From positions 1-26,497 of IMG/VR virus record IMGVR_UViG_3300010149_005752: DNA of 26,497 bases. The stretch is one strand, 5' to 3'. The position numbers and the translations under genes are program-made. Under the pieces are notes generated by a model. That model worked only from the letters and a program-made list of their open reading frames with translations, was not told where the DNA came from and did no database searches. This document shows positions 3,735-26,497 of this stretch, in pieces; the stretch's first letter is position 1, and each line of letters opens with the position of its first letter. The stretch is from a virus.

Positions 3735-4448
3735 ATGAAAATAAAACTATATAATGACAGTATTGGTTTTGTTGAGCTAGTTCAATCAATGGGCGAGGAT
3801 ATAACTGTAGTAAATTCTGCGAGGGTTTCTTTTGGAGTTCATAAAGAATCATTAGATGACAAAGATAAAAAGTTAATTAACTATTTGATTAAACATAGAC
3901 ATACTTCTACTCTAGAACACAATATTGCAACTTTTAGAATTAAAGTTCCTTTATTTATTAGAAGTCAACATCATCGTCACAGGACATGGTCTTACAACGA
4001 GATTAGCAGAAGATATACAGATGTAAACTTAGAATTTTACGAGTCAGATCTTCTTAGAACACAACACAAATCAAATAGACAATCTTCGAATCATGAGTAC
4101 ATAAATCCTAAATTGTCAATGAGTACAGACTTTGCATCTACACCTAGAATTATAAAAGCTACTGAAGCTATAAAAGAGCATCACAAATTATCTCTAGAAA
4201 TATTTGATAAGCTTTTACAATCAGGAGTTTGTAGAGAACAAGCAAGAGGAATTTTGCCACAAAATTTATATACAGAATATTATGCTACAGCTAATTTAAA
4301 TAATATTTTAAAGTTTATAGATTTAAGAACACACGAAGGTGCTCAATGGGAAATTCAAAAGCTTGCTGAAGGTATGTTAAGTATTATTGAATCTTTATGG
4401 CCAGAGACTATTAAATGCTATACTAATATTAAAAATAGTGTAAAATAA
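3735..4448 (+). CDS. thyX: Flavin-dependent thymidylate synthase ThyX
   Basis: ThyX methylates dUMP to dTMP using FAD, NADPH and methylene-tetrahydrofolate. The diagnostic RHR-x7-S motif is intact: R81-H82-R83 then TWSYNEI and S91, followed by RRY. Upstream HTSTLEHNIATFRI and downstream REQARGILPQN and LRTHEGAQWEIQ also match the family. At 237 aa the length is normal. The ribosome site AAAAAGGATAAAA-ATG is strong. It sits 11 bases after the amidase gene. This copy is the canonical enzyme; a second divergent homologue lies at 7132-8100. Together with the dCMP deaminase, dUTPase-like and kinase genes it supports dTTP synthesis independent of the host ThyA. Confidence 0.97.
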   Translation: MKIKLYNDSIGFVELVQSMGEDITVVNSARVSFGVHKESLDDKDKKLINYLIKHRHTSTLEHNIATFRIKVPLFIRSQHHRHRTWSYNEISRRYTDVNLEFYESDLLRTQHKSNRQSSNHEYINPKLSMSTDFASTPRIIKATEAIKEHHKLSLEIFDKLLQSGVCREQARGILPQNLYTEYYATANLNNILKFIDLRTHEGAQWEIQKLAEGMLSIIESLWPETIKCYTNIKNSVK

Positions 4449-7131: not shown

Positions 7132-8100
7132 ATGCCAATTAATAATAATTTAACTCCTATTAATCTTCCTATGGATTTAAAATTTAATCAAGAAGTTCGT
7201 ACTAATTTTATTAATAATTTAGAATCATTAAAAATTGATTTAATTGATGGTCCGACAAGAGAACAAGCACAAAAAATTGCATGGCATATGACAAAAGCAA
7301 CATGGGCTGATCAACCAACATCAACTAACTTTGAAGGTGCTGATCCTAAAGAAGCATCTATTAACTTGCAAGATGTTTTAAACTTTCGTGCTTTACCTAC
7401 TCCTATGGAATGTTTAGGCTTTACATTTAGAATTAGTGGTATTGACACACAAACTGTAACACATCTAATCAGACATCGTGCTGGATCTTTTGCAGCACAA
7501 TGTACAGGTGATCGTGATTTAAGATTTGATAATGCTTTAGTTCCAGAATCTATTGAAAATTCATCATATTACGATAGATTTAAAAAAATTGTAAGTGATG
7601 CAAAAAAATTATATGCAGACATGTCTGATAGTAAATGTATTTCAATGATGGATGCACGAGTTATTCTTCCAAAGTGTATGGAAACATTCTATATTGCGCG
7701 TTTTAATCTTAAAGATCTTATTGGTTTTATTAAACAACGTCAAGACGTACAAATTCAACCTGAAGTTGACAATATAATTGCGACAAGAATTGCAAAAATT
7801 GTTTGTACGCAAATTCCTGAAGTTGCAACTTGTCTTAACTTTGAAAAGCCTGATATGCATTATGTTCGTACTTTTAGAGTAAAACTTTCTGACGGAACGT
7901 ATACTTCTCGTGGAACAAACTTATATCAACCAGAACCTAAAAATGATTTATTTGAATATCATGAAAATGATTCTATATATCAATGTAGACGTGAAGAGTT
8001 AAATGGAGATATGCCTACAAATGAAGCTAAAAACTTTACTGTTATGTGGCATGATGATATCTCTTCTATTGATGCAATTAAAAAAACATTAAACTTTTAA
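7132..8100 (+). CDS. Divergent ThyX-family protein (second ThyX homologue, non-canonical active-site motif)
   Basis: This 322 aa protein aligns with the ThyX at 3735-4448 across the core: TPMECLGFTFRIS before the motif, IRHR (R114-H115-R116), then DARVILPKCMETFYIARFNLKDLIGFI and QIQPEV, which match the LP, NL and AQ-E segments of ThyX. The signature differs: after RHR the sequence is AGSFAAQ-C rather than TWSYNEI-S, so the NE pair and the motif's final serine (now C124) are lost, while S119 keeps the RHRxxS position. It is about 85 residues longer, with an N-terminal extension and a polar C-terminal tail. It may bind a different pyrimidine or a different carbon donor, or be inactive. GGAGG lies just before the ATG. 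A deoxyribosyltransferase-like gene follows 24 bases later. Confidence 0.8.
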   Translation: MPINNNLTPINLPMDLKFNQEVRTNFINNLESLKIDLIDGPTREQAQKIAWHMTKATWADQPTSTNFEGADPKEASINLQDVLNFRALPTPMECLGFTFRISGIDTQTVTHLIRHRAGSFAAQCTGDRDLRFDNALVPESIENSSYYDRFKKIVSDAKKLYADMSDSKCISMMDARVILPKCMETFYIARFNLKDLIGFIKQRQDVQIQPEVDNIIATRIAKIVCTQIPEVATCLNFEKPDMHYVRTFRVKLSDGTYTSRGTNLYQPEPKNDLFEYHENDSIYQCRREELNGDMPTNEAKNFTVMWHDDISSIDAIKKTLNF

Positions 8101-10988: not shown

Positions 10989-11131
10989 TAAAAAAATTCG
11001 TAGCAAGTCTTTATAACTTTAAATTTGAAACTATAAACTTCTTATTAATTGATATAAGTAATAATACAGCTAATTTTTAATAGAACGAAAAAAATCATCT
11101 ATTAATTTAAACATCAAGGATATTGTTTTAT

Positions 11132-12328
11132 ATGCAAAAAAGATATCATAATCAAAAAGGATTCATATCAGTAGTTATATTGTTTATGGCTGCAGTATTA
11201 GCTTTTATATCATATAATATAATAGATATAGGCACTACAAGCATTAAAGTAAACACTGAAAAGCAAACTTTAGATGCTTGTAGTGTTTTAGCAGGGCAAA
11301 TCTTAATAAAGACAAATAATATACAAGAAGCATGTAGTTCTCAAAACTTAAATCAATGCTCTGAGTTAACAGGTAATACTGATTCTAATATGTCTTGTAT
11401 TGACTTAGGTCTAGAATGTAATAACTTAGACGAATGCAAAAGAAAAATGCTCATAACTTCAGAATATAATCCCGGAAATTTAGAAGTTGCTAAATCAGTT
11501 GAAATACATGTTAATGAAGAAACTCACGAAGTCAATCTTGTTGATGCTGCAGTAATAATGCTTTTAGACTTTAGCGGTTCTATGCAAGGAAATAGAATAA
11601 ATCAATTAAAAGCCGCAGTAGCAGAGTTTATAAGTTCAAACTATAATTTAAATTACTCTGTTATTCTTTATAATAACAGCATTATATCATTATCAAATAT
11701 TGATAAAGGATTAAACCACGATCAAAACGTGCTGTCTATAGTTGAAAGTAACAGTGCAAGAGGAGGTACAAATTTTTTATTGCCTTTACAAGAAGCTTTA
11801 AGACAAATAAATAACACAAATCATGAAGCATACTACATAATGTTAATATCAGACGGTGCTCCAAATGAAGGACCTAATCCTTCTAGAAACTTTGTTACAA
11901 ACAATATCATGAATATTGACAATAGTTTTTGTTTAGTATCAACTAGACAAAATCCTTGTATCACAATTTTTACTTTAGGCGTTGACAATGCTGACTTAGG
12001 AACATTAAGAATGTTAAGTGGTAATACAATTAGTCAAGACCCAGTTAATTATTCTTATACAGCTAGTTCAAACCAAACTTCTGATGCGTTTAATGCAATT
12101 ATAGAAGAAATAATTTGTAGAGTAGGTCCTGTTAGATCTGAAGGTTTTCTTAAAGTTTTTAACGACTTAGAGATATTAGAAGAAAATATTGACTATATTT
12201 TTGATGTTCAAAATAAAATACTTAAGTTTTATGATTCAGAGCCGTTTAATATATGTACAGAGATGATAAATAATAGAAGCAATATTACTTTAAGGTGGGG
12301 AAATCCAGAACTATATGTTATACATTAA
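11132..12328 (+). CDS. Membrane-anchored TadG-like protein with von Willebrand factor A domain
   Basis: The 398 aa protein starts best at ATG 11132, with AAGGA 11 bases upstream; a TTG at 11123 is too near that site. Residues 1-10 are basic, and about 11-31 form a single hydrophobic segment, followed by DIGTTSIKVNTEKQTLDACSVLAG, which resembles the TadE/TadG pilus-assembly N-terminus (quoted in part). A Cys-rich stretch (about 68-102) suggests disulfides outside the cytoplasm. Residues about 138-330 are a vWA domain with an intact MIDAS: DFSGS (D146, S148, S150), GGTNF (T213) and SDGAPNEG (D241). A small strand-rich C-terminal domain follows. It may bind a surface or matrix ligand in the host envelope. 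The 3' end overlaps the convergent minus-strand gene by 4 bases. Confidence 0.75.
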   Translation: MQKRYHNQKGFISVVILFMAAVLAFISYNIIDIGTTSIKVNTEKQTLDACSVLAGQILIKTNNIQEACSSQNLNQCSELTGNTDSNMSCIDLGLECNNLDECKRKMLITSEYNPGNLEVAKSVEIHVNEETHEVNLVDAAVIMLLDFSGSMQGNRINQLKAAVAEFISSNYNLNYSVILYNNSIISLSNIDKGLNHDQNVLSIVESNSARGGTNFLLPLQEALRQINNTNHEAYYIMLISDGAPNEGPNPSRNFVTNNIMNIDNSFCLVSTRQNPCITIFTLGVDNADLGTLRMLSGNTISQDPVNYSYTASSNQTSDAFNAIIEEIICRVGPVRSEGFLKVFNDLEILEENIDYIFDVQNKILKFYDSEPFNICTEMINNRSNITLRWGNPELYVIH

Positions 12329-13256: not shown

Positions 13257-16181
13257 TTGTCTATTGAATTAATAACACCACCAAATAGATTTGTATCTCT
13301 TCATTCACACTCAACTTTTAGTACTTTTGATGGTCTAGGTTATCCAGCAGATCACATAAACTTTGTTCTTTCTGAATCTCAAGGTATGGATGCATGGGCT
13401 TTAACAGATCATGGAAACGGCAACGGTCTTGCTCATGCACATTCACATGCTGTTAAAATGCAAAAGAAAGGTCAAAAGTTTAGGCAAATCTACGGTGTTG
13501 AATTCTATTTTGTACCTTCTCTAGAACAATGGTCAAAAGAATACTCAGATCATCGTCAAGCTGTTAAAGATGCAAAAACAGCAGCAGCTGCCGAAAAGAA
13601 ATCAAAAGAAAAAGTCGATATCGATGCTGATGATGAAAGTGGTGGTCTTGTTGTTGAAGACGAAGATGAAACAAAAAAAATAGATATTCTTAAAGATGAA
13701 TGGAAACGACGCTATCACCTTGTAGTCACTGCGCGTAATAGAAAAGGTTTAAACAATTTATTTACTCTAGTTAAAAAGTCATATAAATACGGTTTCTATA
13801 GATATCCTCGTATTGATTTTAAAATGCTTAAAGAACATGGTGAAGGTCTACATGTATCAACAGCTTGTTTAGGAGGTATTTATAGTAATCGTATTCTTCG
13901 TGGTAATGCACATAATAAGTCACATGATGAAATACAAAAAGATTTATTAAACCTAACAGACAGATTTACAGACGCTGTAGGTATTGAAAACTTTAAATTA
14001 GAATTACAATTTAATAAACTAGAAAAGCAACATATTGTTAATAACTTTTTAATTGAACATCATAAGTTAACTGGTATTCCTTTGATTTCTACAGCTGATT
14101 CTCATTATCCTACTAATGATAAATGGCAAGCACGCGAGTTATACAAGAAACTTGGTTGGTTAGGCAAAAAAGACGGTATGACTCTTCCTGAGTTTGAAGA
14201 TTTAAAGTGTGAACTATATCCTAAGAATTCACAACAAATGTGGGATGAGTTCTTAGAATCTTATCCTTTATATGACTTCTATAAAGGTAATGAACAGCTA
14301 GTTAAAGAATCAATTGAAAGAACACACGATATTGTCTGGAATGATTTTGAAGATACTTGGATTGATACAAGCGCCAAATTACCAACAATATCAGTACCAG
14401 GAAAAACTCCATTTCAACATTTGGCAGAATTAGTAAAACATGCTTTAATAAAAGAAGGTTTACATAAAAGTAAAGAGTATGTTGATAGAGCAAAATATGA
14501 ATTATCAGACATTAAGTATTTAGGTCACGCTGCTTATTTTATTACAATGTATGAAATATTTAAAAGAGCTGAAACTAAAACTTTATTTGGTGCAGGAAGA
14601 GGTAGTGGTGCAGGATCTTTAGTAAACTATCTTTTAGGTATTACTCAAATAGATCCAATACCTTATAATTTACTTTGGAGTAGATTTTTAGGTAGACATA
14701 GAACTTCTTGGCCTGATATTGACACAGATGCAGGTGACAGAGATGAATTAATAAAGGCAGCAAGAGAATTATACGGTGACGATGCTGTAATTCCAGTATC
14801 AAACTTTAATACACTTAAACTTAAGTCGCTTGTAAAAGATATTGCTAAGTTTTATGATATTCCTTTTGATGAAGTTAACAAAGTAACAGGACCATTGCAA
14901 GATCAAGTTATGTCTTTAGCTATGGATAAAAATCAAGAAAAGTCTGTATTCGTTTTAAAACATGTAGATTGTATGAAATATTCTCCTGAGTACAATGAAT
15001 TTATGACAAAATATCCAGAAGTTGCAAAACATGTAGAAACTTTATTTATGCAAAATAGAGCTATTGGTCGACATGCTGGAGGTGTTATTATAGCTGACGC
15101 AGATAAGCTTGAACAATCAATGCCTATCGTTGGTGTGCGTGGTGAACTTCAAACTCCTTGGACAGAAGGTATGAACTTTCGTAATTTAGAAGATAATGGA
15201 TTTCTTAAGTTTGACTTTCTAGGATTAACTCTTCTTAAAGATGTTGAAAATTGTATTTATCGCATTCTTAAAAAACAAGGAAACATTAACCCGACATTTA
15301 CAGATGCAAGAGCATTTTTTGACAAGCATCTAAATTGTAGATTTCATAAACAAGAAGATATGGATGTTTGGAAACATGTTTATCACAATGGTAGATTTTG
15401 TGGAATATTTCAATTTACAAATCAAGGTGCAAGACAGTTTGCTTTAGACGCAAAACCAGATAATATCGAAGAACTTGCTGCACTTACTGCGATTTATAGA
15501 CCTGGACCTTTAAAAGCAAATGTTCATAAAAAATATGTTAAAGCTAAACATAATAAAGAATCTATAACTTATCCTCACCCTATCATTGAAAAGATATTAG
15601 GTCCTACATTTGGATTTATAACTTTTCAAGAACAGTTTATGTTATTAGCACAAGAGCTTGCTGGCTTTGATCCTGGTGAAGCTGATAAACTTAGAAAAAC
15701 TTTAGTTAAAAAATCTTTAGATACATTACATTCAAAAGGCTCTGAAAAAGCTATTGCTAGAGAAAAGTTTATTAAAGGATCTAAAGAGTTAAATGATATT
15801 CCTGAATCGATATCTTCTAAATTATGGGCAGAAATAGAATTCTTCAGTGTTTATGGTTTTAATAAAAGTTTACTATTTGATACACTAGTGGATACTTATG
15901 ATCATAAAGGAAACTTTTTAGCAACAAAGGAGATTCAAGATGTTATTCCAGGTGTTTATGTTAAGTCTAGAGATGAAGAAAGTAAAGAAGATATATTTAC
16001 ACAGGTTTTGTCAAACCACGATCATGGAGAAGTTCCGACATTTAAGATTACTCTTGAAGACGGGCAAAGTGTTGAATGTACAATGCATCATAAATTTAGA
16101 GTTGAAGACGGAAGGATGTTACCACTATGGTTCATAATACAAGAAGATCTTTCGATTGTGTGTGCGGAAAAAGTTATGTAA
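13257..16181 (+). CDS. dnaE: DNA polymerase III alpha subunit, N-terminal part, ending in split-intein N-half
   Basis: Residues 1-870 are a bacterial-type family C replicative polymerase. The PHP domain opens with SLHSHSTFSTFDG (H16, H18) and has ALTDHGN; a charged, low-complexity insert lies at about 100-145. The palm has GAGRGSGAGSL and PDIDTD (D487, D489 catalytic) with the third Asp in KFDFLGL (D653); GRHAGG and ITFQEQ match the fingers. The polymerase stops at VYGFNK (870), exactly inside the conserved YGFNKSHA block. Residues 871-974 are the N-half of an intein. The polymerase continues in the gene at 17163. The start is TTG with AAAGG 8 bases upstream. Activity would require protein trans-splicing. 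The endonuclease gene starts inside its last 55 bases in another frame. Confidence 0.95.
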   Translation: MSIELITPPNRFVSLHSHSTFSTFDGLGYPADHINFVLSESQGMDAWALTDHGNGNGLAHAHSHAVKMQKKGQKFRQIYGVEFYFVPSLEQWSKEYSDHRQAVKDAKTAAAAEKKSKEKVDIDADDESGGLVVEDEDETKKIDILKDEWKRRYHLVVTARNRKGLNNLFTLVKKSYKYGFYRYPRIDFKMLKEHGEGLHVSTACLGGIYSNRILRGNAHNKSHDEIQKDLLNLTDRFTDAVGIENFKLELQFNKLEKQHIVNNFLIEHHKLTGIPLISTADSHYPTNDKWQARELYKKLGWLGKKDGMTLPEFEDLKCELYPKNSQQMWDEFLESYPLYDFYKGNEQLVKESIERTHDIVWNDFEDTWIDTSAKLPTISVPGKTPFQHLAELVKHALIKEGLHKSKEYVDRAKYELSDIKYLGHAAYFITMYEIFKRAETKTLFGAGRGSGAGSLVNYLLGITQIDPIPYNLLWSRFLGRHRTSWPDIDTDAGDRDELIKAARELYGDDAVIPVSNFNTLKLKSLVKDIAKFYDIPFDEVNKVTGPLQDQVMSLAMDKNQEKSVFVLKHVDCMKYSPEYNEFMTKYPEVAKHVETLFMQNRAIGRHAGGVIIADADKLEQSMPIVGVRGELQTPWTEGMNFRNLEDNGFLKFDFLGLTLLKDVENCIYRILKKQGNINPTFTDARAFFDKHLNCRFHKQEDMDVWKHVYHNGRFCGIFQFTNQGARQFALDAKPDNIEELAALTAIYRPGPLKANVHKKYVKAKHNKESITYPHPIIEKILGPTFGFITFQEQFMLLAQELAGFDPGEADKLRKTLVKKSLDTLHSKGSEKAIAREKFIKGSKELNDIPESISSKLWAEIEFFSVYGFNKSLLFDTLVDTYDHKGNFLATKEIQDVIPGVYVKSRDEESKEDIFTQVLSNHDHGEVPTFKITLEDGQSVECTMHHKFRVEDGRMLPLWFIIQEDLSIVCAEKVM
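15867..16181 (+). other. Split intein, N-terminal half (Int-N), 104 residues
   Basis: The segment begins SLLFDTLVDT, matching intein block A with serine instead of the usual cysteine as residue 1. Block B is visible as ECTMHHKF, with T72 and H75 in the TxxH arrangement. The run LEDGQSVECTMHHKFRVEDG and the following RMLPL closely parallel the cyanobacterial Npu DnaE Int-N (LEDG, ATKDHKF, VDGQMLP). The final residues IVCAEKVM overlap the endonuclease start and may not be needed for folding. The family and insertion point are seen directly; splicing activity is inferred. Confidence 0.93.
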
Positions 16182-17116
16182 ATAAGTCTGGGTTACATAA
16201 TCACCAGAAAAAATGTAAAGTTTATTTATCGCAAGCAATAGAGGGTGTAGATTACGTAAAATGTAAAATATGTGGTTTTACGGGAAAAAGCATAACAGCT
16301 CATGTTAAAAGAAATCACTCTCTGTCTAAAGCTGAGTATGAAAAGAAATACGGCCCTACTGTATGTGATAGTACAAAAAGTACGTATTCAGAAACTGCAA
16401 AAATAAATGGTGACTGGATTAATAGAGCAAAAGAAAGAGGAGAAGATCTTACAGAATATTTTAATAGCCTTGGGAGTAAAATATCTAAAGGTATTATGAA
16501 ATCTGACTCTGCAAGAGAAGCAAGAAGACAAACACTTTCTAGACTAAATGCAACGAAGGAGTTTAGAGAAAGATCTTCAGAGACAGCTAAGAAAACATCT
16601 AGTAGAAAAGATATACAAGATAAAAGATCAGAACAACTGGCAAAGTGGCGTGAAAATAATCCAGAAGAGTTTTATGAAAAATGCACTTCAGTTATGCATA
16701 AGTCTTGGCAGTCTAAACCTGAAATGGATTTGTTCAATGTTGTAGATCAATTTTTTCCAGATACATTTAAGAAAAATCAAATTCTTAAAAGAACTGGTAA
16801 GTTTTTGTCTACTAAAACAAACATTAGACAAATTGATATTATGTCCCTAGAAAATAAAATTGTAATAGAATTTGACGGAATACATCATTTTAAAGACGTA
16901 TTTAAGAAAAAAGGTAATCTTAATGAAGTTAGCAAGAAAGATCAAGAATTAAACTGTGTATTAGTAGAAGAAGGATGGACTGTGATTAGGGTTTCTTGCG
17001 ACGAATATGATTATAGAGAAAGAGGAAAGTTTAATCAAGAGACATTAGACAAGATATTTGATATCGTAACTAATAAAAAAAGAGGATTATGGCTGTTTGG
17101 AAAGTCATACGTGTAA
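16127..17116 (+). CDS. Homing endonuclease with zinc fingers, NUMOD-like repeats and Vsr/EDxHD-like nuclease domain
   Basis: This 329 aa protein lies between the two polymerase halves. Residues 9-31 (CVCGKSY, then LHNHQKKC) and 44-64 (CKICGFTG, then HVKRNH) are zinc fingers. Residues about 85-185 carry repeats of short helix-forming DNA-binding motifs rich in Ser, Lys and Arg, as in NUMOD-type segments. Residues about 195-290 form a Vsr-like nuclease: E199 in SKPEMDLF, D237 in IRQIDIM, IEFDGIHHF (D250, H253/H254), and KKDQELN (D272) followed by GWTVIRV. This is the endonuclease type reported within split-intein 'fractured' genes. It presumably cuts intein-free alleles to spread the locus. GAAGG lies about 11 bases before the ATG; the first 55 bases overlap the Int-N frame. 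Confidence 0.88.
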   Translation: MVHNTRRSFDCVCGKSYVNKSGLHNHQKKCKVYLSQAIEGVDYVKCKICGFTGKSITAHVKRNHSLSKAEYEKKYGPTVCDSTKSTYSETAKINGDWINRAKERGEDLTEYFNSLGSKISKGIMKSDSAREARRQTLSRLNATKEFRERSSETAKKTSSRKDIQDKRSEQLAKWRENNPEEFYEKCTSVMHKSWQSKPEMDLFNVVDQFFPDTFKKNQILKRTGKFLSTKTNIRQIDIMSLENKIVIEFDGIHHFKDVFKKKGNLNEVSKKDQELNCVLVEEGWTVIRVSCDEYDYRERGKFNQETLDKIFDIVTNKKRGLWLFGKSYV

Positions 17117-17162: not shown

Positions 17163-17273
17163 ATGCCAAGAATTTCATCAATTGAGTTTACAGGAAAACA
17201 GCAAACATATGACTTAGAAGTTGCACATCATGATCACCAGTATTATTTAAGTAATGGTATTTTACAGTCTAAC
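17163..17273 (+). other. Split intein, C-terminal half (Int-C), 37 residues
   Basis: The segment contains GKQQTYDLEVAHHDHQYYL (block F) and NGILQSN (block G). It ends in the catalytic Asn37 and is followed by Ser+1 of the extein (TCC at 17274). The pattern parallels the Npu DnaE Int-C (GKQNVYDIGVERDHNF, then KNGFIASN). The residue before Asn is Ser rather than His, as in cyanobacterial DnaE. Its length is typical of natural split Int-C pieces. Confidence 0.93.
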
Positions 17274-18239
17274 TCCCATGCAATTTCTTATGCTATTGGA
17301 TCTTATTACGCAGCTTGGTTGCATACTCATCATGAAACTGAATGGTTAGCAGCTATATTACAATCTGAAAATGGAAATCCTAAAGGAATGTCAAAAGCTA
17401 TATCTGAAATAAAATCATTTGGATATGAAATTGCTGCTGTTGATGTTAATTATTCTGGAAAAGAATGGGAATATTCAGAAGAATTACAAGCTTTTGTTCC
17501 TCCATTAACTTCTTTAAAAGGTGTAGGAGATAAAGCTGTTGAAGAAGTTTTTGCTAATAGACCTTATAAAAACTTGAATAGTTTATTCTTTAATGAAGAA
17601 GGTAGTTGGAAACATTCAAAATTAAATAAAACAGCTTTCGTTTCATTATGTAAAATGGAGGCCTTTAAATCATTGGATGAAATGCAAAGTAAAAAACTGC
17701 TTAATCACAAGCAGCTCCATGATTTAATTGTTGACAATTATAGTACATTAAAAAAAGGTGTTTGGGGAATTACAAAGACTGCTTATAAAAGAGCAATGAA
17801 AAAAGAAGAGATTGTATTACCTATTGTTGATGTTTTAATTAATGAATATTGTGATAAAGAAGATTGGTCTAGATCTGTTAAAATTGGAAATTATTTTGAC
17901 TTATCAAATGATGCTTCTGAAGATTTATTGTTTCCTCCTGAGTTAATGGAAAAAATCAAAGAAAAAGAAATTGACTCTATATTTGAAATAGAAAGTGGTG
18001 AAAGAGGAATAGGATACTTTACAGTTACTGAAGTTATTAGGAAAACTACAAAAAATGGAAAGCCATTTATGAGATGGAAGTGTATTGATTGTGACAATAG
18101 AAGTGGATGGTTAAGAGTTTGGGGTAATTTAGATCAAGAAATAAAGTATACTACTTGGTTATCAGATGTTAAAAACGACGGTGGATGGGGAATGTCAACG
18201 ACTTCTGCAAAAGTAAAATTAATTAATGCTTTTGATTGA
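17163..18239 (+). CDS. dnaE: Split-intein C-half plus DNA polymerase III alpha subunit, C-terminal part
   Basis: Residues 1-37 are Int-C; residues 38-358 complete the polymerase begun at 13257. The extein opens SHAISYAIGSYYAAWLHTHH, the continuation of the YGFNK block, then LTSLKGVGDKAVEEV (helix-hairpin-helix) and an OB-fold segment, YFTVTEVIRKTTKNGKPFM, ending SGWLRVWG and a short tail. The joined extein would be about 1191 aa, close to bacterial DnaE. The region after the OB fold is short compared with cellular DnaE, so the tau-binding tail may be missing, as would suit a phage enzyme with its own partners. Translation begins at ATG 17163 with GAAAGGG 6 bases upstream. Confidence 0.94.
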   Translation: MPRISSIEFTGKQQTYDLEVAHHDHQYYLSNGILQSNSHAISYAIGSYYAAWLHTHHETEWLAAILQSENGNPKGMSKAISEIKSFGYEIAAVDVNYSGKEWEYSEELQAFVPPLTSLKGVGDKAVEEVFANRPYKNLNSLFFNEEGSWKHSKLNKTAFVSLCKMEAFKSLDEMQSKKLLNHKQLHDLIVDNYSTLKKGVWGITKTAYKRAMKKEEIVLPIVDVLINEYCDKEDWSRSVKIGNYFDLSNDASEDLLFPPELMEKIKEKEIDSIFEIESGERGIGYFTVTEVIRKTTKNGKPFMRWKCIDCDNRSGWLRVWGNLDQEIKYTTWLSDVKNDGGWGMSTTSAKVKLINAFD

Positions 18240-19770: not shown

Positions 19771-20181
19771 ATGAATAGACCTACTTGGGATCAGATATGG
19801 ATGAAAGTAGCAGAAACTATATCATTAAGAAGTCATCATCCTGAGTACAAAGTTGGAGCTGTTATAGTGTCTTCTGATAATACTCAAGTTTTGTCTTTAG
19901 GATATAATGGTAATGCTGCAGGAATGTCTAACGAACCAGATTCTATAAAGCCTGGAGAAAGTGGATTACTACATGCTGAAATAAATGCATTATTGAAATT
20001 GGACTATAATAATCCTAAAGACAAAGTTTTATATTTAACTTTAATGCCTTGTGAATATTGTGCAAAAGCTATAGTAAACAGTGGAATTAAAAAAGTAGTA
20101 TACAAAGACGAGTATAGATGTAAAAAAGGCGTTGAAATATTAAACGCACAAAATATATTAACATATCGATATGATAATTAA
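19771..20181 (+). CDS. Deoxycytidylate (dCMP) deaminase, zinc-dependent
   Basis: The enzyme converts dCMP to dUMP, the ThyX substrate. The zinc site is complete: H68-A-E70 in LLHAEINALL, and C94 and C97 in MPCEYCAKAI. SHHPEYKVGAVIV and GYNGNAAG fit the family. At 136 aa it is slightly short compared with T4 dCMP deaminase, and I do not see the extra zinc-finger insert. The ATG at 19771 follows GAGGATTAAA, so it is preferred over an upstream TTG at 19759. The 3' end runs up to the next orphan gene. A general cytidine deaminase is less likely because of the phage setting with ThyX and kinases. Confidence 0.93.
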   Translation: MNRPTWDQIWMKVAETISLRSHHPEYKVGAVIVSSDNTQVLSLGYNGNAAGMSNEPDSIKPGESGLLHAEINALLKLDYNNPKDKVLYLTLMPCEYCAKAIVNSGIKKVVYKDEYRCKKGVEILNAQNILTYRYDN

Positions 20182-20206
20182 TACTAAAATATCTATGGAG
20201 AAAAAA

Positions 20207-20590
20207 ATGCTTGATTCTAACTTTATAAAAAAAATGAACGAATCATATAACAAAAGACTTAATTACTTTTTAAATGAAAATGATATTATCAAAGATAAAC
20301 ATGGAAATAACTATGTTGAACTTGCAAGAGGATTAAAAGTAAGAAACAAAAAATCTGGTTTAAGATTTACAGTATTTGGTTATGAAAGAGAAGGCAATGA
20401 AGAATATATTCTTCTTTTAAAGCCTGACGTTGCTTTACCTGATTTGTATCAAAAAGCTTTTTTAAAAGATGAATTAGATAATAGAGACGATAAAGAAAAA
20501 ACAGTTGATAGAGAAATAAACATTAAAGATAGTGACATAATTAAAGTTAATATTAAAGATTTTGATAACGAATACGAAAGAAAAGGTTAG
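20207..20590 (+). CDS. Orphan protein
   Basis: This 127 aa product has no recognised domain. ATG 20207 is chosen because GGAG lies 7 bases upstream; ATGs at 20171 and 20195 overlap the deaminase end or lack a site. It begins with a helix (FIKKMNESYNKRLNYFLNE), then strands (KSGLRFTVFGYE, EYILLLKP), and ends with a charged tail rich in Asp, Lys and Glu. It is followed one base after its stop by the superoxide-dismutase-like gene, so the two are likely co-translated. Confidence 0.7.
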   Translation: MLDSNFIKKMNESYNKRLNYFLNENDIIKDKHGNNYVELARGLKVRNKKSGLRFTVFGYEREGNEEYILLLKPDVALPDLYQKAFLKDELDNRDDKEKTVDREINIKDSDIIKVNIKDFDNEYERKG

Positions 20591-20591
20591 A

Positions 20592-21308
20592 ATGAATATA
20601 GATAAAATAATTAATGAAGCTATTAAAGATTCTTTTAAAAAAGAAAAAGAAGAAAATTTAATCTTAAAACAAAGTAGCAATATTATTAAAGAAAGTTATG
20701 TTACTCAAGCTGGAAAGTTTGATCTTAAAACGGAATTATTATCAGAAAAAACTAAAAAAAGCCATCAAGCTTTATTAGAAGGCTATGTAAAAGAGTTAAA
20801 TGAAATATCAGCAAAGTTAGACTCAGCAGATACTTCTGAAGCAAATTTAAATAATTCAGAATTTAGATCATTAAAAATAGATGAAACTTATAATTTAAAT
20901 GCTGCTTTTTTGCACGGATTATATTTTCAAAATATATCTGATCTTAATAGTCAAGTATCTACAGATAGTTTGTCTTATATGAAACTTTCTAGAGATTTTG
21001 GTACATTTGACAAGTGGCAAGAAGATTTTATTGCTTGCTCGTTATCTGCAAGAAATGGATGGGCTGTAACTTTATATAGTACTCAATTAAAAAGATATGT
21101 TAATACTGTAATTGATTTGCATTCTCAAAATGTTATGATTGGTATGCAACCTTTAATTGTAATTGATTGTTGGGAGCATAGTTATTATAGAGACTATTTA
21201 AAAGATAGAAAGACTTATGTCTTCGCTATGATGAAAGAATTAAACTGGAACGTCATAGAAGAAAGATTTAAGCAAGCTGAAAAAATACACAAGATTTTAG
21301 GAGCTTAA
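20592..21308 (+). CDS. Iron/manganese superoxide dismutase family protein
   Basis: The 238 aa protein matches Fe/Mn superoxide dismutase, which converts superoxide to oxygen and hydrogen peroxide. All four metal ligands can be placed: H58 in the first helix (SEKTKKSHQALLEGYVKEL), H108 in AAFLHGLYF, and D192 and H196 in VIDCWEHSYYRDY, followed by the family's NWNVIEERF end. DFGTFDKWQEDF and NGWAVTLY are also typical. A leader of about 40 residues, which bacterial enzymes lack, precedes the fold. ATG 20592 follows AAAAGG. Neighbours are orphan, probably structural genes, so it may be packaged in or on the virion. Enzymatic activity is probable but not proven. Confidence 0.85.
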   Translation: MNIDKIINEAIKDSFKKEKEENLILKQSSNIIKESYVTQAGKFDLKTELLSEKTKKSHQALLEGYVKELNEISAKLDSADTSEANLNNSEFRSLKIDETYNLNAAFLHGLYFQNISDLNSQVSTDSLSYMKLSRDFGTFDKWQEDFIACSLSARNGWAVTLYSTQLKRYVNTVIDLHSQNVMIGMQPLIVIDCWEHSYYRDYLKDRKTYVFAMMKELNWNVIEERFKQAEKIHKILGA

Positions 21309-21309
21309 T

Positions 21310-22122
21310 ATGAAAAGTAATTTTAAAAACAATATAGAACTTTTATTTGAAAATAAAAAAAAGCCTAGCTTAAAAATTCTTTTAGAAGAAGACGAAGATA
21401 AAAAAAGCGACAAAGAAGAAAAAGAAGAAAAAGAAGAATCTAAAAGTGATGATCCTTTTGACTTTGCTCAAGAAGAAAAGACTGATGAAGAAACACCAGA
21501 AGAAATACCTTCAGAAGAAAATATTGAAAGTATTGATGATAAACAGATGTCTGATAAAGAACAAGAAGATTTAAAAACATCTATGTTTGTTCAAAGCTTA
21601 AATACAGAATTAGAAACTGCTGAAAAAGGTAAAGACCTAAGATATTCTAAACTAAATAGTATAGAAAAGAATAATCCTATTAGCGCTATTACAGATTCTA
21701 AAGAATATAAATTAAAAAATTTATTGTTTGAAAAAAGTAATGATGGAAAAAACATAGCAAAAAAAATAAATTCGTTTTTAGATGATCATCAAGATAAAAT
21801 ATCTAATTTAAAAAAAGCTAACAAGCAAGAGATAGAAGGATATGGTATTGAAATAAACGACTTATTAAATAAATCTGTAAAAGCAGTAAATGAATTTGAA
21901 AAAAAGATACATCCAGCTGATGTTATTTTAAATTTCTATGAAAAGAAAATAGTTGAGCTAGCTCCGTTAGAAGAGATAGATGATATGTTGGACGAGTTTA
22001 GAAAAGAATTTTGTAAGAGAGTAAAAAAAGAAACACAATATACAGATTATGAAAGACCTGAATTTTACGCAGGAAGTAATTCTAACTATAATAGTGGTGT
22101 AGTTGGACAAAAATCAGGTTAA
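21310..22122 (+). CDS. Highly charged orphan protein with acidic N-terminal region, possibly structural
   Basis: This 270 aa protein begins with a short basic/hydrophobic leader (NNIELLFENKK, then LKILLEED) and then a very acidic, Glu- and Lys-rich low-complexity stretch to about residue 95. The rest is helical with charged repeats (KKINSFLDDHQDKISNLKK, DMLDEFRKEFCKRVKK) and a Tyr/Asn/Ser/Gly tail. Composition is that expected of a scaffold, core or flexible virion protein, but there is no sequence match to name it. It starts one base after the dismutase gene stop, with GGAG upstream. Confidence 0.7.
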   Translation: MKSNFKNNIELLFENKKKPSLKILLEEDEDKKSDKEEKEEKEESKSDDPFDFAQEEKTDEETPEEIPSEENIESIDDKQMSDKEQEDLKTSMFVQSLNTELETAEKGKDLRYSKLNSIEKNNPISAITDSKEYKLKNLLFEKSNDGKNIAKKINSFLDDHQDKISNLKKANKQEIEGYGIEINDLLNKSVKAVNEFEKKIHPADVILNFYEKKIVELAPLEEIDDMLDEFRKEFCKRVKKETQYTDYERPEFYAGSNSNYNSGVVGQKSG

Positions 22123-22767: not shown

Positions 22768-23133
22768 ATGAAAGAACAAGAACTTATAAACACAATATTG
22801 TTTAGCAATCAGATTAATGAAAAATTTGAAGTTGATGATTCAGGTAGACAATTTAGTAGTACAGCTATTTTTGATAGACCTTCAAAAGAAAAAGAAGATA
22901 TTTTTGAATTACCTATAACTAGCGCTGAAATTACTTCAAATCAACTTACTAAAGATCTAGTAAGCAAAGAAAAACTTTTAGACAAAAATTATCAACCGCA
23001 AAATATAAAAGAGTTAATTTCAGCAATTAATTCAATATTTAATAATATCGATATGACAAAAGATCAAATATCAGTTACTTGGAAAATAATTAAGAAAATA
23101 TCAGAAAAGGTTTCTAAGAATGAAGTTAACTAA
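22768..23133 (+). CDS. Orphan protein preceding the large structural-type gene
   Basis: This 121 aa protein begins with a helix (EQELINTILFSNQINEKFE), continues with a polar loop region, and closes with an amphipathic helix (NIKELISAINSIFNNI, then WKIIKKISEKVSK). It has no recognised domain. AAGG lies 8 bases before the ATG. The last 14 bases overlap the start of the following very large gene, suggesting coupled translation and perhaps a chaperone or partner role, which is unproven. Confidence 0.7.
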   Translation: MKEQELINTILFSNQINEKFEVDDSGRQFSSTAIFDRPSKEKEDIFELPITSAEITSNQLTKDLVSKEKLLDKNYQPQNIKELISAINSIFNNIDMTKDQISVTWKIIKKISEKVSKNEVN

Positions 23134-26100
23134 AATTAGAATAAAAAAGTTGCTAGAAAACAAGTCTAATGATTTTAAAAGAAAATATTACGCATTATCT
23201 ACTTTGTCTACTAATGACAGCATAGATACTTACGAAATATACGCAGAAGCATGTGTATATCTTGAAAATCTTATAAAAACAGAAGGTAAAATACCTGAAT
23301 ATAATGCTATTATTAATCTTTACAAAGAGTCTTTAATAAAAGAAAATAAATCAAAAAGAGTAATAGATAATAATGTTAAGTTTATCAATAGATATTGTGA
23401 CTTATCTTTTTCTAAAAAGCTCTCTTTATTTGAAAACATTGTAGAAGAAGAATTAGTTAGTGCAGGAAAGAATTATTTAAAAAAAGAAATAGATAACAAA
23501 CTTTTCTCTGTAATGATTGAATCTTTTAACACTAAAAAAAGTTTATTTTTAGAGTCAACTGACTTAAACAAAGATGAAAAATCAGGTAAATCATATTTAA
23601 AAGATCTTGCAAAAAAAGTAATAACAATTAAAAATATACCTTTTATAGAAAATACTCTAGGAATTTTTTTACCTAAAGGTTATTTTAAAACAGACGAAGA
23701 AATGCAAAAGCATCTAACAAAGGTAACTCATGCGATTCTTGCAAAATATGATTTAATAGTAAATAAAAGAGCTTCTAAAGAAGATTTAAAAAAATTACAT
23801 ATTATTTCTATTATTGATTATCATTTAAATATAGCACAAGAACCTTATTCTGATGAAGATATTAAAAAAATGTCAGATAGTTTTGGATTAAATGATTATA
23901 CTTTAAGTTCTGTTTACGGCGGATTAGTTAAAAAATCATCTAACGCTTTAAAATCTTTAAAAAGCGTTAGCCTGTCAAGAGGAAAAATAAACGATGACGT
24001 TAAGTCTGTTTTAAAAGCTGAAAGAAATAGGTTAGTTAATCTAATTACGTTTACAGAGTATAGTATAAATACTAACAATTTAAACATAAATGATTTATAC
24101 TTGCTTCTAAGCAGATGTATAAAAGAAGATACATATAAATATCCTTCTAAAAGACTAGGAAAATATCAAACAACAGATATTAAAGTAACTGATTTGGAAG
24201 AACCAGAAGAAACAGTAACTGGTGAAAAAATAAAACAAAAAACAGAATTAGTTCCAATTACAAAAGATATAGTTGATATTGATTTAAAGGGCGAAAAAGT
24301 AATAAGTCTTATTAAAAAAGATATGGATGCTTTGTATTCTGATAAGAGCTTTGATGTAAATGCAAAAGATGATTCATCTAGCGATAATCAACAACAGTAC
24401 TTAAAAGACTTAGAAGATTTTGAAAGAGCAAAGAGTAAAGAAGACAAAGAAGAAATGGAAAAGTATCCTGACTTTTTAGATGCTAAATCTGTAAAGCAAA
24501 AAGGTACAGATCCTAATTATTATCCAAAGCTAAAACCAGTATATAAACCTGAGATTCAAACAACTATGGATAGTGAAGGAAATGTAACTACTAAAAAGGT
24601 TCCTGCTAAAGATATTTGGGGTAATAGAATAATTGTTAAAATGATGCATGTTCATGACAAAGATGGAAATCCTATTGGAGAGTTTGAACTAGAAGATTCT
24701 GAAGATGTTGTTGATATTTCTGATTATTTTCTAAAAAATAAAAGCCAAAGAAAATCAGCTAGAAGAGAAGAATTAGAAAAATCAAAAATGTTAAGCATAT
24801 CATCAGATCCTTCTTTAAGTGCACCTACGCCAGAAGATTATTATAGAATATTGGCAAAAGGAAATAAAAAGCTAGGTAAATCAAAATCTTATCAAGAAAT
24901 AGCAGATTTATCTAGTGGAAGATGGAAAAATCATTCAGGCGCTAGACAAGATATTAATAAATACTTTGTTAGAAGCATGTTTTATTCTGCAAACAATAAG
25001 TTAAAATCATCTATATACAAAGATCTCTTAGTAAAATATATTTATTTATTAGAAAAAAAAGATCTTGTTGATGATAACTTTGTTAATTTAAATGATTTTA
25101 CAAGAGTTAAAGATTCAGATGAATCTAAACTGAGTTTGTTTGAAGATATAAATAACAATATCACAGAAGCTGATATTGAAGAATATCTTACTGGCGAGTT
25201 AGAAGAAAAAGCTTATAGCGATGACATGTCTGGTCTTAAATTTGAAATATTAGATGACTTAATATCAGAAAGTATTTCTGGTTTTAGAATTTTTGTAACA
25301 CATTTAATGAGAGACTTTTACGATAAAAATATTTGGAAAAAACTAGAATTAGACTTAACGTATGCAGTAAAAGAATATTTTAATAAAAACTTTCCTAACA
25401 ATAGAATTGCAGAAAACTTAGCAAAAGGAAGACAAGTTAGAGATATTTTCAAAGTAAAACATTCAGGACAGGCACTTTTTAATACTATAATTTATTGGGT
25501 TATGAGAAGCACTGCAATGAAAGGTGCTAAAGGCCAGATAGATCAGAAAAACTTAGCAAAAGAAGATGTAGAATTAAGAAAAAGTAAGTTTAGAGCTGAA
25601 TTTACAAAAGCTATTAGTAATCATAATAATTTTGTTGATTCATATAATAAAGCTAAAAATAAAAACTGGCCAAAATTAATTTTTAGTAATTTAGATATGG
25701 AAAATTTAGTAAAAGATATTTCATATGAAGATCCAAGTAATAGTATAATAGGAAAGTATTACGAAGAAGCTAGATATTTTGATAATGAAAAATTAAATAG
25801 ATTTAACTCTTGGTTAGGTGAACTTGAAAAAAAGAAAAAGCTATTCACATATGTTTCAGTTGCATTAATAACAAATTGGTATTATAAGAGTGGCTTTATA
25901 TTGTCTAAGATTCAAGGATCTAATGATAGTGCAAATAATAGTAATAGCATAAGATTTGTTTTAAAACACAAAGAAGACAATAGTATTCATCTTTTAGCAA
26001 AAAAAGAAGAGATGATGATAAAAGCAGCTGCTGAAGCTAGAGTCAAAGAATATGAAAAAACAGTAAAATCTGATTTGACTAAGTACGAAGAATATGCAAG

Positions 26101-26497
26101 TAACAAATACAAGAATCCAATGCCTAAACAAATAAGAGACAGATGGATTTCTGATAATTCTACAGAAGAAGCATTATATTACGATCCTACTAAGAAGAGA
26201 CTAGTTAAAGTAGAGATTAATATGCCTATAGAAACAGACGGAGAAGACAATCTTGAAAAATGCAGTATTTTCTTGCCTGATGCTGAAGATAGTATTGTAG
26301 TAAATACTGAGGATCTTGTTCCTTTAAAGATAGATTCAACTATGAAGAGAGAAATTGAAAAATCTTCTGGGTCTAACAAGTATAAGAATACAATGACAAA
26401 AGAAGAAAGAGACAGATGGATATCTAATATATCTACTGATGAAGCACTTTACTTTGACAAAGAATCTCAAAAGCTAGTTAAAGTAGAGATTGATATG
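23120..26497 (+). CDS. Very large orphan protein (at least 1126 residues), 3'-truncated by window edge; probable virion or structural protein
   Basis: An uninterrupted frame runs from ATG 23120 (AAGG 9 bases upstream) to the last base of the window, encoding 1126 residues with no stop. It starts MKLTKIRIKKLLENKSN and is rich in Lys, Ser, Asp and Leu. Helical stretches alternate with acidic linkers near residues 360-460. No enzymatic motif is visible. Near the end, the segment SNKYKNPMPKQIRDRWIS and about 25 residues after it recur 91 residues later as SNKYKNTMTKEERDRWIS, so a repeat array may continue beyond the window. A long repeat-bearing protein in a late-type gene block suggests a tail, fibre or internal virion protein, but this is inference. 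The small minus-strand frame within it is a shadow. Confidence 0.8.
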   Translation, partial: MKLTKIRIKKLLENKSNDFKRKYYALSTLSTNDSIDTYEIYAEACVYLENLIKTEGKIPEYNAIINLYKESLIKENKSKRVIDNNVKFINRYCDLSFSKKLSLFENIVEEELVSAGKNYLKKEIDNKLFSVMIESFNTKKSLFLESTDLNKDEKSGKSYLKDLAKKVITIKNIPFIENTLGIFLPKGYFKTDEEMQKHLTKVTHAILAKYDLIVNKRASKEDLKKLHIISIIDYHLNIAQEPYSDEDIKKMSDSFGLNDYTLSSVYGGLVKKSSNALKSLKSVSLSRGKINDDVKSVLKAERNRLVNLITFTEYSINTNNLNINDLYLLLSRCIKEDTYKYPSKRLGKYQTTDIKVTDLEEPEETVTGEKIKQKTELVPITKDIVDIDLKGEKVISLIKKDMDALYSDKSFDVNAKDDSSSDNQQQYLKDLEDFERAKSKEDKEEMEKYPDFLDAKSVKQKGTDPNYYPKLKPVYKPEIQTTMDSEGNVTTKKVPAKDIWGNRIIVKMMHVHDKDGNPIGEFELEDSEDVVDISDYFLKNKSQRKSARREELEKSKMLSISSDPSLSAPTPEDYYRILAKGNKKLGKSKSYQEIADLSSGRWKNHSGARQDINKYFVRSMFYSANNKLKSSIYKDLLVKYIYLLEKKDLVDDNFVNLNDFTRVKDSDESKLSLFEDINNNITEADIEEYLTGELEEKAYSDDMSGLKFEILDDLISESISGFRIFVTHLMRDFYDKNIWKKLELDLTYAVKEYFNKNFPNNRIAENLAKGRQVRDIFKVKHSGQALFNTIIYWVMRSTAMKGAKGQIDQKNLAKEDVELRKSKFRAEFTKAISNHNNFVDSYNKAKNKNWPKLIFSNLDMENLVKDISYEDPSNSIIGKYYEEARYFDNEKLNRFNSWLGELEKKKKLFTYVSVALITNWYYKSGFILSKIQGSNDSANNSNSIRFVLKHKEDNSIHLLAKKEEMMIKAAAEARVKEYEKTVKSDLTKYEEYASNKYKNPMPKQIRDRWISDNSTEEALYYDPTKKRLVKVEINMPIETDGEDNLEKCSIFLPDAEDSIVVNTEDLVPLKIDSTMKREIEKSSGSNKYKNTMTKEERDRWISNISTDEALYFDKESQKLVKVEIDM
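26102..26497 (+). repeat. In-frame repeat, two copies, 273-base (91-residue) period
   Basis: Copy 1 is at 26102-26224 and copy 2 at 26375-26497. Each encodes 41 residues of the pattern NKYKN-x-M-x-K, RDRWIS, ST-x-EALY, then KLVKVEI ending in Met. Residue identity is high while DNA has diverged, which points to selection on the protein rather than a recent duplication. The window ends exactly within or at the close of copy 2. Confidence 0.85.

Follow-up and report, generated by a model that had tools for sequence, protein, structure and literature searches.

Superoxide dismutase (SOD) genes of phages are usually taken as auxiliary metabolic genes of the infected cell. A gene of this fold lies in a viral DNA stretch of 26,497 nucleotides (IMG/VR record IMGVR_UViG_3300010149_005752, hereafter the window), and its product carries an N-terminal leader in front of the dismutase domain. 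This raises the question of whether the protein serves in the cytoplasm of the infected cell or travels in the virion, and whether its metal site is still used.

The SOD-fold gene and its predicted structure

The gene and its immediate surroundings are organized as follows.

20592 to 21308, + strand: SOD-fold gene, 238 aa (open reading frame with PF02777 and 1coj matches)
20581 to 20586, + strand: Shine-Dalgarno-like AAAAGG, 5 nt 5' of the SOD ATG (read from the sequence)
20171 to 20590, + strand: upstream conserved orphan gene (cluster 6), directly before the SOD gene in 28/41 loci
21310 to 22122, + strand: downstream acidic orphan gene (clusters 21, 9 loci, and 4, 31 loci)

The SOD gene is wedged almost gap-free between the two orphan genes, and its AAAAGG overlaps the end of the upstream one, whose stop codon occupies 20588 to 20590. 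The coordinates of the open reading frame agree with those of a preliminary description made from the letters of the sequence. The C-terminal Fe/Mn SOD domain (PF02777) is recognized in the window protein with an E-value of 6.6e-21 (74.7 bits for a cut-off of 20.9) and is matched in 41/41 aligned family members; the N-terminal hairpin domain PF00081 stays under the Pfam cut-off (19 vs 27 bits). The closest solved relative by sequence is the Fe-SOD of Aquifex (1coj; phmmer E-value 1.2e-31). Pentapeptide-repeat and UBR1 Pfam matches of the protein were under cut-off and were disregarded. Scanning the window for Rfam families and tRNAs gave no match.

An AlphaFold2 model of the window protein (mean pLDDT 88.5; 41 family members as input) superposes on 1coj with a Z-score of 25.9 and an rmsd of 1.5 Å over 202 aligned residues (35% identity). 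Homology to Fe/Mn SODs, as initially proposed, is thus borne out far beyond chance by the PF02777, phmmer and structural scores. The alpha-hairpin of the N-terminal part is present in the model (helices 52-78 and 90-114), aligned with 1coj from residue 35 on. The structural alignment starts at residue 35 of the model and residue 2 of 1coj, so that residues 1-34 are an addition and the remainder is a complete SOD. The leader, first put at about 40 residues, is therefore 34 residues long; it is modeled with lower confidence and has no counterpart in 1coj. The protein can be divided as follows.

20592 to 20693, + strand: N-terminal leader, residues 1-34, with a predicted helix at 3-27, then a linker, ending at E34; proposed capsid-targeting propeptide
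20685 to 20696, + strand: proposed prohead-protease site I32-K33-E34/S35 (family conservation and T4 gp21 motif)
20694 to 21305, + strand: mature SOD-fold domain, residues 35-238, superposing on 1coj residues 2-209

Distribution of the family

Scans of IMG/VR gave 51, 28, 55 and 80 loci (the last from 175 encoding stretches, in one pattern scan), and the family comprises at least 104 distinct sequences there, including that of the window. Many of the contigs are 100-320 kb long, the longest reaching 322 kb. Searching 50,697 phage records with tblastn yielded, as best matches, only SODs that lack the leader or are distant. The suggestion that such dismutases are rare in phages therefore holds for cultured phages but not for IMG/VR: the family is common yet uncultured, with no cultured representative in the collection searched. 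A single PF02777 match, corresponding to one SOD copy, was found in each of 20 related contigs. Cellular relatives of the window protein are 29-39% identical to it. A cellular origin was considered and rejected for two members binned into bacterial metagenome-assembled genomes (MAGs), L243 and L244; both show the gene order of the phage loci (DNA polymerase III, DHH phosphoesterase or dCMP deaminase, and the same orphans) and are phage contigs. The BFVD entry A0A6J5L953, a "superoxide dismutase" of 501 residues from an uncultured phage, matches in its SOD part only (TM to target 0.34) and is possibly a fusion.

The leader and its proposed cleavage site

The prohead protease gp21 of T4 cleaves after the motif L/I-x-E (PMC9026906) and trims N-terminal propeptides off the T4 internal proteins and the capsid protein gp23 (PMC9026906; PMC9958956). 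The short propeptides removed from the internal head proteins are capsid-targeting sequences, and gp23 loses 65 residues (PMC9026906; PMC9958956). In giant phages, cleavage likewise occurs after Glu (PMC5694885). As the motif is short, its presence alone is uninformative and only its conservation is informative.

In the phage SOD family the leaders vary in length (median 29 residues) and in sequence, yet end at one near-universal site with the consensus [LIVM]xE|[ASN][YLIF]. The Glu is found in 102/102 members having the alignment column, the following residue (P1') is A, S or N in 102/102, and P3 is L, I, V or M in 100/102; once the two MAG phage contigs are included and the divergent L079 is excluded, 104/105 members have the Glu. 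It is kept in all 14 members that have lost metal ligands (see below), and occupies that column in one of six cellular relatives. Outside the site the leader evolves fast: between the window and its nearest relative (L001), pN is 0.447 in the leader vs 0.105 in the core. In a control screen of conserved neighbor families, the enzyme families showed no conserved N-terminal site, and the SOD showed it in 41/41.

In both proteins modeled, the proposed cut also falls precisely where the SOD fold begins. In the window protein the fold begins at residue 35, and in the ligand-less protein of L043 it begins at residue 30, directly after the cleavage Glu E29. The L043 model retains the SOD fold (Z 25.6 to 1coj), its alignment having included ligand-bearing members, which favors such an outcome.

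Prohead protease and capsid protein in related genomes

No prohead protease or capsid gene was seen in the window, a fragment of 26.5 kb. The relatives were represented by 26 large SOD-carrying contigs, which, like IMG/VR contigs in general, may be fragments too. A gp21-type protease (PF03420) was found in 20/26, always over the Pfam cut-off, and these 20 contigs also encode a gp23-type capsid protein. In all 20 capsid proteins L[RK]E occurs some 60 residues from the N-terminus, immediately ahead of the mature domain, and the next residue is in most cases S, Q or A.

By eye, the capsid proteins and the SODs both have FTxxxLxxxIR-like starts. A common leader is unsupported, none of the 20 capsid N-termini reaching 4 bits against the SOD leader profile, in a weak test where several capsid sequences are cut at an internal Met. 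Other N-termini are weakly enriched at 10 bits (10/706 vs 4/3740 internal windows). These comparisons of the leader with capsid and other N-termini gave no sequence-level targeting code. Many orphans of SOD-carrying phages have N-terminal helices resembling MK-[IL]-T-E-x-x-[LI]-R-x-[IL]-I-R-E (L243:8410-8703, L243:12070-12330, L009:483-794, L022:2620-3399 and others), possibly a common targeting tag.

Gene neighborhood and other features of the window

Across loci a conserved order is found, in which dCMP deaminase is followed by an orphan, the SOD gene, an acidic orphan and further orphans, and the conserved neighbors of the SOD gene include dCMP deaminase, thymidine kinase, DNA polymerase III and orphans. 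The neighboring orphans have no PHROG match at an E-value of 0.001. The preliminary description had placed the gene next to structural-type genes, but its neighbors are nucleotide-metabolism genes and these orphans. A position beside head or tail genes can also be rejected for the relatives, where the capsid gene lies about 53-81 kb from the SOD gene on the same strand (which for G006 and G017 requires the contig ends to be joined) and the sheath and gp25-type baseplate genes are elsewhere too. The internal-protein genes of T4 are likewise scattered, and distance from the head genes is therefore no argument against a head protein.

In four orphan families of the SOD cassette, L/I-x-E sites occur at residues 13-18 and are conserved in part. 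Such sites were noticed in clusters 4, 17, 23 and 24, the last two corresponding to window positions 22768-23133 and 23120-26497. Cluster 4, which in most other loci takes the place of the gene at 21310-22122, often carries [LIVMF]xE motifs at residues 16 and 65. To judge from these motifs, several proteins of the head core that undergo processing may be encoded in the cassette.

Some other features of the window deserve mention. DNA polymerase III alpha is split in two (13257-16181, 16127-17116 and 17163-18239), with apparent split intein halves: the N-terminal part ends in a Hint-like stretch, the C-terminal part starts with ...HDHQYYLSNGILQSN before the polymerase resumes, and an endonuclease-like open reading frame with a weak DUF559 match separates the halves. 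From its sequence, the locus looks like a fractured-gene, split-intein arrangement. Two ThyX (Thy1) paralogs are present (3735-4448 and 7132-8100; E-values 2.4e-46 and 1.3e-17), the second longer and diverged. The product of the gene at 11123-12328 combines a von Willebrand A domain with a membrane segment at its N-terminus; it resembles TadE/TadG-type pilus proteins and is unusual for a phage.

The metal site and its losses

The residues of the metal site are encoded at the following positions.

20763 to 20765, + strand: metal ligand H58, His in 90/91 ligand-keeping members (one gap) and lost in 12/14 ligand-lost members
20913 to 20915, + strand: metal ligand H108, in 91/91 ligand-keeping members
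21120 to 21122, + strand: H177, conserved His likely beside the metal, in 89/91 ligand-keeping members, 1/14 ligand-lost members and 6/6 cellular relatives
21165 to 21167, + strand: metal ligand D192, in 91/91 ligand-keeping members
21177 to 21179, + strand: metal ligand H196, in 91/91 ligand-keeping and 0/14 ligand-lost members

The four ligands first proposed are all present and align with the conserved ligands of the cellular relatives; H177 we take to be the outer-sphere His of the Aquifex/archaeal type. The family spacing ascribed to them needs a qualification: the distance between H58 and the gateway Tyr is shorter by one residue than in classical SODs, an arrangement also found in the cellular SODs L246-L248. 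In an ungapped alignment with 1coj, H58 is one residue off and could be taken for a misassigned ligand. This can be dismissed, given the spacing shared with L246-L248, the classical spacing restored within the family by a one-residue insertion in L049, and the usual loss of H58 along with the other ligands.

All four ligands are found in 90/105 members, the window included, and one more has a gap at H58; these 91 retain the ligands and H177 with hardly an exception, and superoxide dismutation is plausible to judge from the residues kept. The other 14 lack two or more metal-site residues, and for them the fold claim alone stands. Their replacements vary by lineage (H58 to N, R, Q or L; H196 to R, G, N, T, E or S). 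On the best tree, ligand loss requires four changes, of which supported branches force at least two, all within one clade of 52 rows; a single ligand-lost clade is not rejected by the AU test (p 0.228), and repeated rather than single loss appears likely from these sequences.

The ligand-lost genes do not look like dying genes. Their dN/dS values (0.012 for L055/L058 and 0.021 for L054/L055, the two pairs for which it was calculable) indicate purifying selection and compare with 0.018-0.079 in ligand-keeping pairs; the remaining ligand-lost pairs show saturation at synonymous sites and a pN of 0.07-0.24. Since these 14 sequences keep the scaffold and the cleavage site, SOD activity cannot be the sole selected function. 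Many invariant positions of the family are phage-specific rather than SOD-typical (S73, S89, R92, E98, D117, R134 and D135). In addition, position 195, the Glu of the dimer-bridging W-E-H motif, is Gln in 37/104 members, which suggests a changed dimer interface.

Proposed function and alternative readings

We consider it probable that the gene codes for a head-internal SOD-fold protein of large T4-like marine phages, targeted by its leader, cleaved after E34 and injected, with a metal site that is active in most lineages. The precursor, carrying a 34-residue capsid-targeting propeptide, would be recruited to the prohead core as in T4, and the site suggests that the phage's own gp21-type prohead protease would cut after E34. 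The mature fold (residues 35-238) would then stay inside the head alongside the DNA and, like the internal proteins of T4, reach the host cell together with the genome. For most lineages, that of the window among them, the kept metal site implies that Fe or Mn is probably bound and that superoxide removal is possible; the enzyme may protect DNA or early infection against superoxide. In the minority lineages the metal site would have decayed, probably more than once, and the protein would persist in a structural or host-interacting role.

What supports a virion protein is the combination, in the same genomes, of a near-universal L/I-x-E site, a gp21-type protease and a matching site in the capsid protein. 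The preliminary description had offered two options, and the anatomy of the leader favors the one of a virion protein reusing the fold; shielding of the infected cell, as a sole role, is contradicted by the 14 ligand-lost members. We advance more tentatively, as a guess about timing and purpose, that the SOD is loaded into the head by its leader and injected with the DNA to exert an antioxidant or counter-defense activity in the first minutes of infection, some lineages having moved to a metal-free new role. A search of the literature returned nothing specific on phage-encoded SODs in virions and no proteomic evidence for a protein of the window type in any virion.

An alternative that shares the packaging step and differs on activity is that the SOD fold is purely structural in the head, for example in the core or associated with DNA, its metal site being a relic or structural and without any dismutase role. 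The persistence of fold and scaffold in 14 members lacking at least two metal-site residues would fit, as would the many phage-specific invariant positions. However, 91 members keep the four ligands and H177 together almost perfectly, which is unlike a relic, and the losses are confined to one clade of 52 rows. We regard this alternative as rather unlikely, and the confidence given to it overlaps with that given to a packaged, mostly active protein because packaging is common to both.

It is more doubtful still that the protein is an ordinary auxiliary metabolic SOD, acting against oxidative stress in the cytoplasm of the infected cell with the leader as a helical extension serving, for instance, oligomerization. 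Retention of the ligands and H177 in about 85% of members, the close structural match to 1coj (Z 25.9), the nucleotide-metabolism neighbors, which are expressed in the cell, and the leaderless SODs of the jumbo phages PA5oct and Vibrio phage 2.275.O in metabolic neighborhoods would all be consistent with it. Nevertheless, it leaves unexplained why a fast-evolving leader contains a near-universal L/I-x-E|A/S site and why this site fits the start of the fold exactly, and members devoid of the metal site persist under purifying selection with no second SOD. Finally, a leader acting as an export signal or cut by a host protease, with the SOD working in the periplasm or outside the phage, recalls the apparent N-terminal export signals of the cellular fold relatives L246, L247 and L249 but is highly improbable, the aligned phage leaders being charged and helical with no evident hydrophobic core and ending in a site that matches that of the phage's own capsid protein.

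A packaged, leader-targeted SOD would have several implications. Read from its anatomy, the protein would be an enzyme fold packaged in the virion, with a targeting leader that a protease can remove, in a widespread group of large ocean phages, and part of what is inventoried as phage metabolic genes would then be virion cargo. The logic of the leader, a helix followed by a near-universal L/I-x-E site, would provide a sequence test for other injected proteins of uncultured T4-like phages. The losses of the metal site represent a natural experiment separating a packaging or structural role from catalysis.

Comparison with known systems

The Fe-SOD of Aquifex pyrophilus (1coj; PF00081/PF02777 family) shares with the window protein the whole mature fold, the four ligands and the Aquifex/archaeal-type His at position 177. 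It differs from the window protein, which has a cleavable-looking 34-residue leader, a sub-cut-off N-terminal hairpin and phage-specific invariant positions, and 14 relatives of which lack ligands.

Among viruses, Pseudomonas phage PA5oct (gp223) and Vibrio phage 2.275.O also harbor Fe/Mn SOD homologs in large genomes. These proteins are about 26-28% identical over half the length, but are leaderless, 182-189 aa long and located in a different gene context. The record of PA5oct gp223 bears an "ESI-MS/MS" note, but as those of several metabolic enzymes do too, the note need not mean a location in the virion. Megavirus chilensis likewise represents a large virus with a superoxide dismutase, in this case of the Cu,Zn fold and in a eukaryotic virus. 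We know of no prohead-protease processing of the T4 kind for the SODs of Megavirus or other giant viruses. SOD is named in a review among the proteins packaged in giant-virus particles (PMC9405923).

The internal proteins of T4 (IPI, IPII, IPIII and Alt) provide the closest parallel for the leader. They differ from the SOD family in that the cargo here is an enzyme fold of cellular ancestry whose packaging is predicted from sequence, and in that the leader is usually longer (median 29 residues, compared with 10-20 in T4), no sequence similarity between it and a known targeting sequence having been found. Common to both is a short N-terminal propeptide, a proposed one in the SODs, that ends in L/I-x-E. 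As in T4, genomes of SOD-carrying relatives also code for a gp21-type protease, and their gp23-type capsid protein bears a site of the same kind.
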